Source: Lachnospiraceae bacterium (lineage in GTDB: Bacteria > Bacillota > Clostridia > Lachnospirales > Lachnospiraceae). From it: a stretch of 64,000 nt of DNA. The notes under the pieces are model-generated. The model was not told the origin of the DNA and ran no database searches. It saw nothing but the letters and a program-made list of their open reading frames with translations. Below are positions 15,401 through 21,422 of the stretch, piece after piece. The DNA lies in NCBI GenBank assembly GCA_015056735.1, contig SVFT01000001.1, positions 186,001 through 250,000 of the forward strand. Direction: 5' to 3'. Numbering within the stretch: the first letter of the stretch is position 1; each line of letters opens with the position of its first letter. The position numbers were made by a program, and so were the translations under genes.

Positions 15401-17125
15401 ATGCGTACAGAGTTTAGAGCAGAATACGATCTGATCGATATAACCGCCGCGACGGATGCTGATGAGAGCACCTCAAGCAATCAGAGCTTCGGGGATATTT
15501 CTGCTCTTTCCGAAGGTATTACTTCCGGTGATTACGGGACGCTTGAGACGGACTATTTTCTTCTGGATGGATCCTATCCGGAACTTCCGGATGCTCCGGC
15601 TGATCAGGTGTTTTTCTCTTCAGTGCAATCCGGATCAACAGGAGCCTTTGTAACAGATCCGCAGATCATGATCGAATTTGACAATAATCATACCAGCGCC
15701 GGATTGACCTTCCATTTTATCGGGGACCATCCGCTTGAGATGACGATCATCTGGTATACACTCGATAACATTCCGATCGCAACGAAGTCCTTCGAGATTG
15801 ACAGCAATGATTACTTCGCGAGCAACCAGGTTGAGAACTATGGCAAGATCGTGATCACCTTTACAAAAGCTGAGCCGTACCGAAATGTTAAGCTCAGATA
15901 TCTTGAATATGGTCTCCACCTGATCATCGGTGAAAGCGGCCTGCAGGTAAGCTCGGCAAGCCTCGTAGAAGAAGCTAACCCGATATCTGATAAGATCGCC
16001 ATTAATAAGCTTGATATGAGCGTACTGGACGAGCAGGACACGTTTAACGTCGGAAATATCGCCGGACTCCACAAAGTCCTTCAGAGCGGGCAGAAATGCG
16101 CCGCGTATGAGACTGTGGACGGCACAGATCAGCTCCTTGGCAAGTTTTATCTGAACACGTATAAGACTGATGATAATGTCACGAAAATGACGTGCCAGGA
16201 TATCAAGGGTCTTCTTGATAACTTCACCTTCAGACAGGGCGCAGTATATGACGGCACGACAACAGCCGGAGTGGTACTTGATCAGGTGATGACGGCAGCG
16301 GGTATTACGAATTATTCGGTGGCCGCGGATGTAAGGTCAATCCCTTTATTTGGCTGGCTGAAAAACCAGTCCTGCAGAAAGGTTCTCCGAGAGATCCTGT
16401 TTGCCTGCGGAGCTGTAGCGGACACATCCAGAGACGATAAGATCAACATCTTCCTTCCGGATAGAATCATCCGGAGTAATGTGAAGCGCTCGCGGAAGTT
16501 TTCTACAAGCGTATCAACAAATGAATATATCTCGGATGTGACGATTAAGTACAGCAATTATAATCTCGCATCAGCTGCCTCGCAGATTCTGAAGGGAGAG
16601 TATCAGCCCGGAACGTACACGGTGGATCTGCAAAGTCCTGCATCAGATATGACAGCTACTGGTGCGACGATTACGGCGCAGACGAACAACTACGTGACGT
16701 TTACTGTAGCAACAGCCGGTGAAGTTGTGATATCCGGGAAGAAATACACGAAGGAGGATGTCAGTGTTACAGCTTCCATCGAACACATCGCCGGAGGAGC
16801 CGTACGAAAGACCAAGTCGTTCACATGTACGTGCCTGGATGGTGAGAGAGCACTACAAAGGGCGCAGGCGATCCTTGACTATTATCAGCTGCAGCTTGGC
16901 TTAAAGATCTCCTGTCTTAACGAAGGAGAGGCACCGACCAAGTGGGCGCTCGTGGATAACACGGACCAGGAATATGTCAATTACGTTGCCGGAGCTGAGA
17001 AGGTGTCAACGGATTTAACGGGCGGATTTGTAAGTAATGTTGAAATGCGAGGCTACTACGATGTGAATGCGGCATATGATTACATGCCGGAGATCTATGG
17101 TAATGACGGAATAGGAGATCTGTAA
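15401..17125 (+). CDS. Phage tail / baseplate protein
   Basis: 574 aa; DGTTTAGVVLDQVMTAAGI...SCRKVLREILFACGAVADTSRDDKINIF resembles siphovirus tail-associated structural proteins. Confidence 0.65.
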   Translation: MRTEFRAEYDLIDITAATDADESTSSNQSFGDISALSEGITSGDYGTLETDYFLLDGSYPELPDAPADQVFFSSVQSGSTGAFVTDPQIMIEFDNNHTSAGLTFHFIGDHPLEMTIIWYTLDNIPIATKSFEIDSNDYFASNQVENYGKIVITFTKAEPYRNVKLRYLEYGLHLIIGESGLQVSSASLVEEANPISDKIAINKLDMSVLDEQDTFNVGNIAGLHKVLQSGQKCAAYETVDGTDQLLGKFYLNTYKTDDNVTKMTCQDIKGLLDNFTFRQGAVYDGTTTAGVVLDQVMTAAGITNYSVAADVRSIPLFGWLKNQSCRKVLREILFACGAVADTSRDDKINIFLPDRIIRSNVKRSRKFSTSVSTNEYISDVTIKYSNYNLASAASQILKGEYQPGTYTVDLQSPASDMTATGATITAQTNNYVTFTVATAGEVVISGKKYTKEDVSVTASIEHIAGGAVRKTKSFTCTCLDGERALQRAQAILDYYQLQLGLKISCLNEGEAPTKWALVDNTDQEYVNYVAGAEKVSTDLTGGFVSNVEMRGYYDVNAAYDYMPEIYGNDGIGDL

Positions 17126-17517
17126 TGGATTTTGTATATGACAGAACACAGGCTGATATCGATAACCGAACTGCAAAGGGCTTCCTGAATGCAGTAGACC
17201 TTAACCGTGTGGAGAATAATATTGACGTGATATCCGGGAAGCTGGCACTTCCGTTTACCAAGAAGATTTGGGCACGAACAGGGTTGCCGCGGGTGGCAGA
17301 CTTTACGAGAATCCGAAACGGTGTGAATGCGATCAGAGAAGGATATGGGCACTACAGTGACACTCCTGCGACGCCTTCGCAGCCGCTGAACACTTATCAG
17401 AAGTGGAACGACGTGGAGAGGATCCTCCATGATGTAAATGAAGTATACGACAGATCCATGGGAGCGTTAAATTATTGCGGTGAAGTACTCGCCGGGGAAG
17501 GAATAGGTACATTATAA
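17125..17517 (+). CDS. Tail fibre-associated protein
   Basis: TAATG coupling on both sides; MDFVYDRTQADIDNRTAKGFLNAVDLNRVENNI. Confidence 0.5.
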   Translation: MDFVYDRTQADIDNRTAKGFLNAVDLNRVENNIDVISGKLALPFTKKIWARTGLPRVADFTRIRNGVNAIREGYGHYSDTPATPSQPLNTYQKWNDVERILHDVNEVYDRSMGALNYCGEVLAGEGIGTL

Positions 17518-18062
17518 TGGCTTTTATCACGAAGGAATGGAAAGACAGGATCGTAGAATACGCAGGGCGCAGGAAGCTGGTCAATGTATCCGATCAGAGC
17601 GAGATGATCGTAGATGTAACCAGGAACGAGGGCACCGTATCGCAGGCCGGTGATGCATTCAGTGCGGCCAACATGAACGATCTGGAGCAGAGAGTGGCAG
17701 ATGAGTTTAGCACGATTTCTGAAAATTTAAACGTCATCCAAGGTGATATAGATGCAATCGTTCCTACCTTTTACAACGAAGTCTCTGTATCATCTGTTTT
17801 TCCTTTTACGGCACCTCACACGGGCGTAATTTGCGTTACAATATATCCACAATCCGACGCTACTCTGTATTTAAACCTTGCGTTGTACGATGCAAATAAT
17901 ACAGTTGTTTTAGGAGAAGCGTTAGATATTTGGGGAGGAAATGGAGGCGCACAAAATACGGCTTCTTGTGTTGTTCCTAAAGGCTATACATTAAAAATCA
18001 TAAGAGGGCCTTCTAACATAGCACACATCTGTGCGTCTTTTACTCCGCTAAAGAACGATTAA
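17517..18062 (+). CDS. Tail fibre / receptor-binding protein, expressed orientation (variant A C-terminus)
   Basis: Conserved N-terminal part (AFSAANMNDLEQRVADEFSTISENLN) followed by a beta-rich C-terminal domain. Confidence 0.65.
   Translation: MAFITKEWKDRIVEYAGRRKLVNVSDQSEMIVDVTRNEGTVSQAGDAFSAANMNDLEQRVADEFSTISENLNVIQGDIDAIVPTFYNEVSVSSVFPFTAPHTGVICVTIYPQSDATLYLNLALYDANNTVVLGEALDIWGGNGGAQNTASCVVPKGYTLKIIRGPSNIAHICASFTPLKND
17717..17731 (+). repeat. 15-bp inverted repeat, left copy (TTCTGAAAATTTAAA)
   Basis: Exact reverse complement at 18483-18497; encodes SENLN/K in the same reading frame in both cassettes. Confidence 0.75.
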
Positions 18063-18544
18063 ACAGTATCTCTATACCCAACAACCCAAAGATTTGTTGT
18101 ATTTGAAGCAGAATAACAAGTTATAGTGCTTCCACTTCTACAATTTTTAACGTATAAGCATTGATTATTTGACGGGTTAGACGATTCTGTGTTGTTTGCA
18201 ATCCAAACATTGGGATTCGATGATGTTAATAAAACCGAACTGTCAGCATCAATATTTGATGCGTCTGTGATTGACAAATCCGAATTTCCCGTAAAAATAA
18301 GCAATTCTTTTGCTACGGGTAAATTGCGGACAAGCCCGCTTCCTCTTGATTGGTATATTAACGTGCCACATATCCAAGTATGTTTCGACGGGTCGAAACC
18401 ACTAAAAAAATCGTGCCATTCGCTTCCTCCGTCGAGTGAATATTGGGCTATTCCTTGCGAGTTTTCACGGAACGAAAAGCCATTTAAATTTTCAGAAGCC
18501 GGTCTTAAAATAATTGCCCGCCCGGCACGGGTATTGTATAATCA
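18059..18544 (-). pseudogene. Silent receptor-binding C-terminal cassette (variant B) without a plausible own start
   Basis: Minus-strand open frame from 18541 to 18059, bounded upstream by a stop at 18542-18544: ...RPASENLNGFSFRENSQGIAQYSLDGGSEWHDFFSG...NTTNLWVVGYRDTV. Stop codon overlaps the variant A stop within TTAA. Confidence 0.7.
18483..18497 (-). repeat. 15-bp inverted repeat, right copy
   Basis: TTTAAATTTTCAGAA on the plus strand, reverse complement of 17717-17731. Confidence 0.75.
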
Positions 18545-18555
18545 GAAGTGAAAAC

Positions 18556-18617
18556 AGAGCCTTTGAGCCAATAAAGAGAAATGGATTTAACGTCCTTTCC
18601 TTTATTGGCTCTTTTTT
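18556..18617 (+). terminator. Intrinsic terminator after the tail-fibre region with duplicated 5' arm
   Basis: AGAGCCTTTGAGCC; 12-bp stem GAGCCAATAAAG/CTTTATTGGCTC followed by TTTTTT. Confidence 0.75.
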
Positions 18618-19573: not shown

Positions 19574-19759
19574 ATGAACGATACGAATGATGTTATCAAA
19601 AGGAGATTCGGTTCTATCAAGAGTGTTGTAACGCTTATCTTGACTATCGTATTCGCGTTCTTATCATGCACAGGTATTATCGACGGTGAAAAGTATATGA
19701 CAGTATATACAGTCGTGATTGCTTTTTACTTTGGTACACAGGCAACAAAGGAAAAATAA
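19574..19759 (+). CDS. Putative holin
   Basis: 61 aa with two hydrophobic segments immediately upstream of the endolysin. Confidence 0.6.
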   Translation: MNDTNDVIKRRFGSIKSVVTLILTIVFAFLSCTGIIDGEKYMTVYTVVIAFYFGTQATKEK

Positions 19760-19760
19760 T

Positions 19761-21083
19761 ATGAGGATCATGGGAAAAGCCGAATGTTCGGCAAGACAGA
19801 TGGCACGATACTTGATCAGTAAGAATCCGGCCGCAGTAAGCTTCGCATTGGAATATGCAAAGCTTTATCTGGAAGAAGGTGAAGCCGAGGGTGTGCGCGG
19901 CGATGGGGCGTGGATCCAATCGATGAAAGAGACGGGAAATTTCACATTCTCAGGTGGAACAGCGGTAACCTTCGACCAGAACAACTTTTGCGGTATGGGC
20001 GTAAGAAAGAAGGGTATGAAAGGGGAATCATTTGATACACCACGTCTCGGAATCAGGGCGCAGATTCAGCACCTGAAAGGCTATGCAACGGCAGACGCAC
20101 TCGTGAACTCTTGCATCGACCCGAGATATGGTTATATCAGTCCGAAAGGAAAAGCTCCAACATTCGAGGAGCTTGCCGGGAAATGGGCGATTCCTGGATA
20201 TGACACCACGAAAGCATCAAGCCTTGAAGATGCGATGGCAAAGGGGATCGGTTACGGATTTGACATCGTAAATGGTGTCGAGGCTATGAAGATGATCACC
20301 GAGGGGGTGAACGATATGGAAATCAATAGATCATATCCCGCCAAGTATGTATCATACGGCGGTAAGAGAGCTGCATCCGCAATCAAGTATATCGTAGTTC
20401 ATTATACCGGCAATAAGACAGATAAGGCTGTGAGCAATGCGAAATACTTCTCATCGGCCGGCAGCAATACCAGAGCCGCAGGAGCGAATTACTTCGTGGA
20501 TGATACAAGCGTATACCAGAGCGTAGACGATCTTTGCGTAGCTTACGCTGTTGGCGGCGCTAAGTACGGCAACGTGGCGCAAACAGGTGGGGCCAAGATG
20601 TTTGGCGTGATCACCAATGCGAACAGTTTATCTGTCGAAATGTGCTCAACGAACGGCGAAATTAGTTCCAGAACGATCGAAAATGCTGTTTCGCTTGTAA
20701 AAATGCTGATGTCGAAGTATGGAATTCCGGCGGAGAATGTGTACCGGCACTTCGATGTGAACGGAAAGAACTGCCCCGGATGGACCGGCTGGAATGGTAA
20801 CACGAACAGCTCCCTTTGGGAGAAATTCAAAGCGTCTCTTATAGGAGAAGCTTCGCGGCAGACTCCTGTTCCGGAAAAGAAAGAGACCGACACACCGTTC
20901 CTGGTTCAGCTTCTTGATGATCTGAACATCCGAAACACACCGAACGGAACCATTGTAAAGAAGAACGGATGCAAGAAGGGCGTCAAGTATACCATCGTGG
21001 AAGTATCCGGGAATTGGGGCAAGCTTAAGAGTGGTGCCGGATGGATCTCCATCAATCCGAAGTATGTGAAGCGAGTGGGATAA
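19761..21083 (+). CDS. Modular endolysin: glucosaminidase-like, N-acetylmuramoyl-L-alanine amidase (Amidase_2), SH3-like
   Basis: N-terminal GDGAWIQSMKETGNFTFSGGTAVTFDQNNFCGMGV; central YIVVHYTGNKTDKAVSNAKYF...VYRHFDVNGKNCPG; C-terminal NIRNTPNGTIVKKNGCKKGVKYTIVEVSGNWGKLKSGAGWIS. Confidence 0.88.
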   Translation: MRIMGKAECSARQMARYLISKNPAAVSFALEYAKLYLEEGEAEGVRGDGAWIQSMKETGNFTFSGGTAVTFDQNNFCGMGVRKKGMKGESFDTPRLGIRAQIQHLKGYATADALVNSCIDPRYGYISPKGKAPTFEELAGKWAIPGYDTTKASSLEDAMAKGIGYGFDIVNGVEAMKMITEGVNDMEINRSYPAKYVSYGGKRAASAIKYIVVHYTGNKTDKAVSNAKYFSSAGSNTRAAGANYFVDDTSVYQSVDDLCVAYAVGGAKYGNVAQTGGAKMFGVITNANSLSVEMCSTNGEISSRTIENAVSLVKMLMSKYGIPAENVYRHFDVNGKNCPGWTGWNGNTNSSLWEKFKASLIGEASRQTPVPEKKETDTPFLVQLLDDLNIRNTPNGTIVKKNGCKKGVKYTIVEVSGNWGKLKSGAGWISINPKYVKRVG

Positions 21084-21201: not shown

Positions 21202-21214
21202 TTCCTTAAAATGA

Positions 21215-21287
21215 TGGAGCATAGGGGGATCGAACCCCTGACCTCCAGATTGCGAACCTGGCGCTCTCCCAGCTGAGCTAATACCCC
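21215..21287 (-). tRNA. tRNA-Ala (anticodon CGC)
   Basis: Reverse complement GGGGTATTAGCTCAGCTGGGAGAGCGCCAGGTTCGCAATCTGGAGGTCAGGGGTTCGATCCCCCTATGCTCCA folds as a full cloverleaf; anticodon loop TTCGCAA. Confidence 0.95.
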
Positions 21288-21422
21288 AAAATGGTTATGT
21301 GGTTTACAAACCTTTTGTATTATAGCAAATCCAGCTGTAATATGAAAGCAAATCTTTAAATTTTTTTCCTTCTTGCATACGGAAAGGTTTTACATTAAGA
21401 TAATATATAGGAGGGCTATGTA

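Follow-up and report, generated by a model that had tools for sequence, protein, structure and literature searches.

A prophage in a Lachnospiraceae bacterium very probably carries, where its tail module ends, a switch that sets the receptor-binding tip of the tail fibre to one of two states by DNA inversion. Read from its sequence, the locus comprises a fibre gene with a constant head, a second tip stored headless and antisense directly behind it, and a 15-bp repeat, inverted and in frame, where head and tip would be exchanged. The locus lies within a stretch of 64,000 nucleotides, hereafter the window, which spans positions 186001-250000 of contig C22 in a genome of 2.73 Mb (23 contigs, 99% complete). 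A first-pass annotation of the window, made from the letters alone, had proposed an invertible fibre switch here, and we followed up that proposal by comparing the locus with related prophages and with known inversion systems.

The locus closes the tail module of a prophage

The ends of the prophage are marked by a 20-bp direct repeat, found at L009:3372 and at window position 21215, and its length is therefore ~37.9 kb. The attR core, TGGAGCATAGGGGGATCGAA (21215..21234), is the window copy of this repeat and lies in the 3' end of a tRNA-Ala(cgc) gene (21213-21288); the integrase gene is at L009:3471-4460. Ahead of the locus, a tape measure gene is followed by two tail genes, the second of which (15401..17125, + strand) encodes a tail protein of phrog_13879 (375 bits), and then by a small tail gene of phrog_18725 (17125..17517, +) immediately ahead of the fibre gene, the small gene and the fibre gene having this order in the related phages L038 and L134 too. 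Two small genes come after the switch locus, and then an amidase-type endolysin (19719-21083, +) with a glucosaminidase-like and an amidase_2 domain. In the prophage early region, L009:11594-14143 encodes a protein of 849 aa that resembles, on inspection by eye, a helicase fused to a DNA methyltransferase, and cytosine methyltransferase-like frames follow it.

A fibre gene and a headless cassette lie tail-to-tail

The fibre gene (17517-18062, +; 181 aa) opens with a constant N-terminal head of ~67 codons (17517..17716, +; G+C 51.5%) and ends in tip A (17732..18062, +; G+C 40.6%), the tip expressed in the sequenced orientation. On the opposite strand, open frame B runs from 18541 to 18059 (-), and the stop codons of the two overlap in one TTAA. 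Most of this frame is tip B (18059..18482, -; G+C 39.3%), a silent cassette with no stops in 160 codons, and ahead of the tip is a short open stretch (18498..18541, -) that has no start codon. Frame B, for which the first-pass annotation had seen no convincing start, is headless: neither ATG, GTG nor TTG occurs in the 15 codons preceding the repeat, and the first in-frame start falls at about residue 79. The window locus combines a constant fibre N-terminus with potentially exchangeable headless C-terminal cassettes, and tips A and B have no mutual similarity.

Base composition changes close to the joint. A change-point fit of G+C placed the left edge of the A+T-rich block at 17699, which is 18 bp short of the repeat, while the right edge (18669) is not sharply resolved because the intergenic DNA past it is also A+T-rich. 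Behind the switch is a probable terminator (18565..18611, +), in which a run of T comes after a perfect inverted repeat of 12 bp. A terminator-like hairpin also stands on the minus strand just before tip B (18531-18517), in a scan that did not rise above shuffled expectation; it might insulate the silent tip from transcription. AlphaFold models of A and B made without an alignment had mean pLDDT of 36 and 34 and were not usable.

Residues 10-81 of frame B, a stretch that spans the crossover point, resemble the C-terminal (KTG-region) part of penicillin-binding protein (PBP) transpeptidases, with a score of 24.5 bits against a profile built from 20 PBPs, where shuffles reached at most 4.0 (n=2000). 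The KTG and catalytic motifs are missing from this stretch, and it has no Pfam, NCBIfam or PDB support. The resemblance may reflect distant common ancestry of a beta-sheet segment, or it may be coincidental, and it is the main loose end on the origin of tip B.

An exact inverted repeat joins the head to either tip in frame

The sequence TTCTGAAAATTTAAA occurs at 17717-17731 (+), where it encodes SENLN in frame, and again in inverted orientation at 18483-18497 (-), also in frame. On rechecking the sequence we found the 15-mer to be exact and in frame (SENLN) on both sides, and the coordinates that the first-pass annotation had given for the fibre gene, frame B and the two repeats were all correct. 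Inversion of the 781-bp segment stays in frame, as had been calculated, and the resulting head-B frame is open for 212 aa up to its stop codon. The A-state junction consists of head, repeat and CGTCATCC, and the B-state junction of head, repeat and TGGCTTTT.

The two copies are the sole exact pair of TTCTGAAAATTTAAA in the 2.7-Mb genome, with one further site at 1 mismatch, and among inverted repeats of the window that span 200-1500 bp they form the longest. The locus thus has short inverted repeats, at the joint and at its silent cassette, that hardly recur in the rest of the genome. When the two open reading frames were replaced by dinucleotide-shuffled versions, a match of at least 15 bp arose in 9 of 20,000 trials (p ~4.5e-4), in a test that imposed neither frame nor position on the match; the earlier judgement that such a repeat is unlikely by chance agrees with this frequency.

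Related prophages carry such tips beside a tyrosine recombinase

At the DNA level there were no relatives of the window locus in 60 related genomes, IMG/VR or INPHARED, and no inverted copy of it. Fibre A and tip B, searched against IMG/VR and INPHARED, had no relatives there or matched in the head only, an exact head-plus-repeat search of IMG/VR, able to match either orientation, returned none, tip B had no clear homologue among phage tips, and a PDB sequence search also returned none. Related prophages were found at the protein level by way of the tail gene at 15401, our marker for such phages (40-46% identity), and IMG/VR added L124-L130 to the set.

Several of these relatives (L079/L117, L082 and L124-L127) combine a layout like that of the window with an XerD-like tyrosine recombinase. 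In L079 (G079:C1:2173500-2185000), a tail-to-tail tip pair is followed by a 339-aa tyrosine recombinase and then by one more tip, each joint carrying ATAGTGATTTAG. L082 (G255:C2:42000-55000) has four tips and repeats of CACAAAATTCTAAGATT, and the tyrosine recombinase gene between its tips encodes a protein 35% identical to the L079 enzyme. These two recombinases, the ones tested, are XerA/XerC/XerD-like by NCBIfam, below equivalog cut-offs, and together with the IMG/VR recombinases they form one clade, which we call the shufflon clade.

Two comparisons among the relatives bear on whether such repeats recombine. Genome G079 holds two related prophages, L079 and L117 (G079:C1:1228500-1241500), in which a 563-bp segment bounded by 20-bp repeats lies in opposite orientation (L079:6656-7216 versus L117:8320-7761) at 98.8% identity, with collinear flanks of 97.5% and 84.9% identity. 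In L126 and L127, both from IMG/VR, the flanks are 99% identical and the tips between the crossover sites are completely different. The inversion and the tip exchange therefore show that the repeats are used in these relatives, as distinct from the window. The first-pass annotation had proposed comparing related prophages for the opposite orientation; the window locus itself offered no DNA-level relative to compare, and the inverted cassette turned up between L079 and L117.

Two relatives have a two-tip switch and no adjacent recombinase

L134, an uncultured Lachnospiraceae MAG, is the nearest relative having the head domain of the window, the window head being 63% identical to that of L134, 57% to that of L038 and 49% to that of L039. 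Directly behind the L134 fibre gene, and tail-to-tail with it, is a headless antisense frame carrying the motif GGADTVFPF, of tail-fibre type; a similar motif, GGADTVIPF, occurs in the L038 fibre. In the L134 switch (L134:10267-11437), a 13/14-bp inverted repeat sits at the point of the head that the left repeat occupies in the window (VNNKL/LNNNL versus SENLN). In L091 (G237:C23:22000-32500) the head differs, a 14-bp exact in-frame repeat, CTAAATAGCAATTT, is present, and the two tips are homologous to one another; G+C is 39-40% inside this switch and 48-49% outside it. An IMG/VR copy of L091, L131, is identical to it over 7.6 kb and is therefore uninformative on inversion. No recombinase is adjacent to the tip switch of L091 or of L134, and neither genome has a close homologue of the L079 enzyme, the best match in each being 28% identical.

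The crossover sites of L091 and L134 are close to CTAAAT-N4-ATTTAG, the site of the relatives. In codon register, the crossover reads CTA AAT AGT GAT TTA in L079, CTA AAT AGC AAT TTG in L091, CTA AAT AAT AAT TTA in L134, and GCT TCT GAA AAT TTA in the window. The window repeat agrees with the relatives' site in its right half (AATTTA) and in position, whereas the left half, CTAAAT, differs, and to judge from these letters the window site may need a recombinase of other specificity.

Candidate enzymes in the prophage and the host

The first-pass annotation had reported no invertase in the window and had suggested that the rest of the prophage and the host be searched for a serine or tyrosine enzyme. 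No recombinase lies beside the switch, where a dedicated armless XerD-like tyrosine recombinase is absent, and the prophage, searched whole, encodes its integrase as sole recombinase. The search of the host did yield recombinases, six of the tyrosine and two of the serine family genome-wide; none of them, nor any other in the genome, belongs to the shufflon clade. The host tyrosine recombinase closest to that clade is probably a housekeeping enzyme, because it groups with XerD-like genes present in other genomes. Serine recombinases (PF00239) occur only on contigs C13 and C1, and no IS110/Piv-type enzyme was found in the host by PF02371.

We propose that a site-specific recombinase, most likely of the tyrosine type, would exchange DNA within the 15-bp repeats. 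The 781-bp segment would then invert, so that tip B replaced tip A on an unchanged head, and whichever tip was silent would be stored without promoter or start. Since neither the neighbourhood of the locus nor the rest of the prophage encodes such an enzyme, it would be supplied in trans, by another element or by the host, or else the switch would at present be locked. The window prophage would either have lost the flipping enzyme beside the switch or never have had one.

Alternative explanations

That two unrelated convergent genes happen to share a 15-mer, frame B being a decayed gene fragment, strikes us as improbable. A repeat of 15 bp is only moderately long for A+T-rich DNA, and a tail homologue is not recognisable for B, whose first half instead resembles the C-terminal region of PBP transpeptidases; but the shuffled frames reached such a match rarely even before frame and position are counted, and L134, with its matching head position, and L091 repeat the anatomy with different sequences. 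Flipping by a serine invertase of the Gin/Cin family, the mechanism implied when the first-pass annotation assigned the locus to the Mu/P1 type, would follow the same tail-to-tail logic, and the host does have one small serine recombinase of 213 aa (C13:107567). That enzyme is encoded in an ordinary chromosomal context that lacks such a repeat, however, the prophage has no serine recombinase by PF00239, the locus has no Gin/Cin-type 26-bp gix/cix-like site at up to 3 mismatches from the consensus, and the relatives use tyrosine recombinases, all of which makes this mechanism very improbable. The layout in the relatives and the L079/L117 inversion therefore point to a tail-tip inversion switch rather than one of the Mu/P1 kind, so that the tail-to-tail tip inversion of the original proposal gained the backing of related phages and its type assignment was dropped. 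The integrase was also tried as the invertase, being the only recombinase of the prophage, and was rejected: its att core in tRNA-Ala is unlike TTCTGAAAATTTAAA, it is distant from the shufflon clade, and we give scarcely any credence to its flipping the segment.

A different kind of alternative keeps the anatomy of the preferred explanation, of which it is a sub-case, and denies the activity. The locus would once have belonged to a switch or shufflon that encoded a recombinase, and the enzyme gene would have been deleted, leaving the switch locked with tip A and B as a silent remnant, and we regard this as a real possibility at somewhat under an even chance. It is favoured by the prophage having only an integrase and no recombinase beside the locus, by relatives that carry the enzyme directly behind the cassettes, and by a host genome with no cognate enzyme. 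Against it, frame B has stayed open for 160 codons and all 15 bp of the repeat match, so decay has not begun; moreover, L091 and L134 keep the structure with no recombinase, which suggests a stable way of life and not a recent accident. Returning to the inversion switch as preferred here, we would tentatively suggest, with rather more doubt than confidence, that the window, L134 and L091 represent a recurrent class of switches reduced to two tips and their crossover repeats and served in trans by a tyrosine recombinase, which the host or another resident element would supply.

These data indicate that prophages of Lachnospiraceae also have tip switches and shufflons of the tyrosine-recombinase type, two of the relatives coming from MAGs named Lachnospiraceae, and that at least three prophages have stripped-down switches with no enzyme of their own. 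Should the enzyme act in trans, elements resident in a cell could govern each other's host range, and a tail gene that an assembly annotates as a single allele would represent only one of two states. Were the class served by a trans-acting recombinase real, viral host-range switching would be governed by co-resident elements in the cell.

Comparison with known systems

Host-range switching by DNA inversion is classically a property of enterobacterial phages with serine invertases. In the Mu G-segment (Gin) and the P1 C-segment (Cin), the serine invertase is encoded next to the segment and acts at 26-bp gix/cix sites. The window resembles these systems in that inversion would swap fibre C-termini on a constant N-terminus, and differs from them in having neither an adjacent serine invertase nor 26-bp gix/cix sites. 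A literature search of open-licence papers found no report of such a switch for this bacterial family. Closer at hand are the tip shufflons of L079/L117, L082 and L124-L128, which like the window have tail-to-tail headless tips and an in-frame crossover at the head-tip joint, with repeats of 12-20 bp; the tail genes of L079 and L082 are related to those of the window (phrog_13879). Unlike the window, these shufflons encode a tyrosine recombinase of 330-340 aa next to their cassettes, and they usually have three or four tips.

A 2018 paper described the Rin shufflon of bifidophages, with 11-bp sites, as the first invertase system of the tyrosine family to be encoded by a phage (PMC6109161), and Eggerthella prophages also have Rin, with 8-bp sites (PMC8778435). 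Rin and the window share a constant N-terminus of the receptor-binding protein, headless C-terminal cassettes of low mutual similarity and short crossover repeats (8-11 bp in Rin), but a Rin locus includes several cassettes plus an XerD-like tyrosine recombinase, whereas there are two tips in the window and the enzyme is absent (PMC6109161, PMC8778435). Bifidophages have a second tail locus in which ~500 bp is inverted at an 8-bp repeat with no recombinase nearby, and for which an enzyme acting in trans was proposed (PMC6109161). This locus, in 689b-1/Bb423phi2, belongs to other phages of another host phylum, its genes have no recognised function, its repeat is 8 bp rather than 15 bp, and its inversion was observed between two phages, whereas the window locus is known from one orientation (PMC6109161). 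Like the window, it has a segment in structural genes that is bounded by short repeats, there ~500 bp with a small gene plus the 3' end of the gene next to it, as well as dissimilar gene segments and no adjacent recombinase (PMC6109161). By analogy, then, it is the tyrosine-recombinase Rin shufflon that the window locus resembles, and especially the second, recombinase-less inverted locus of the bifidophages.
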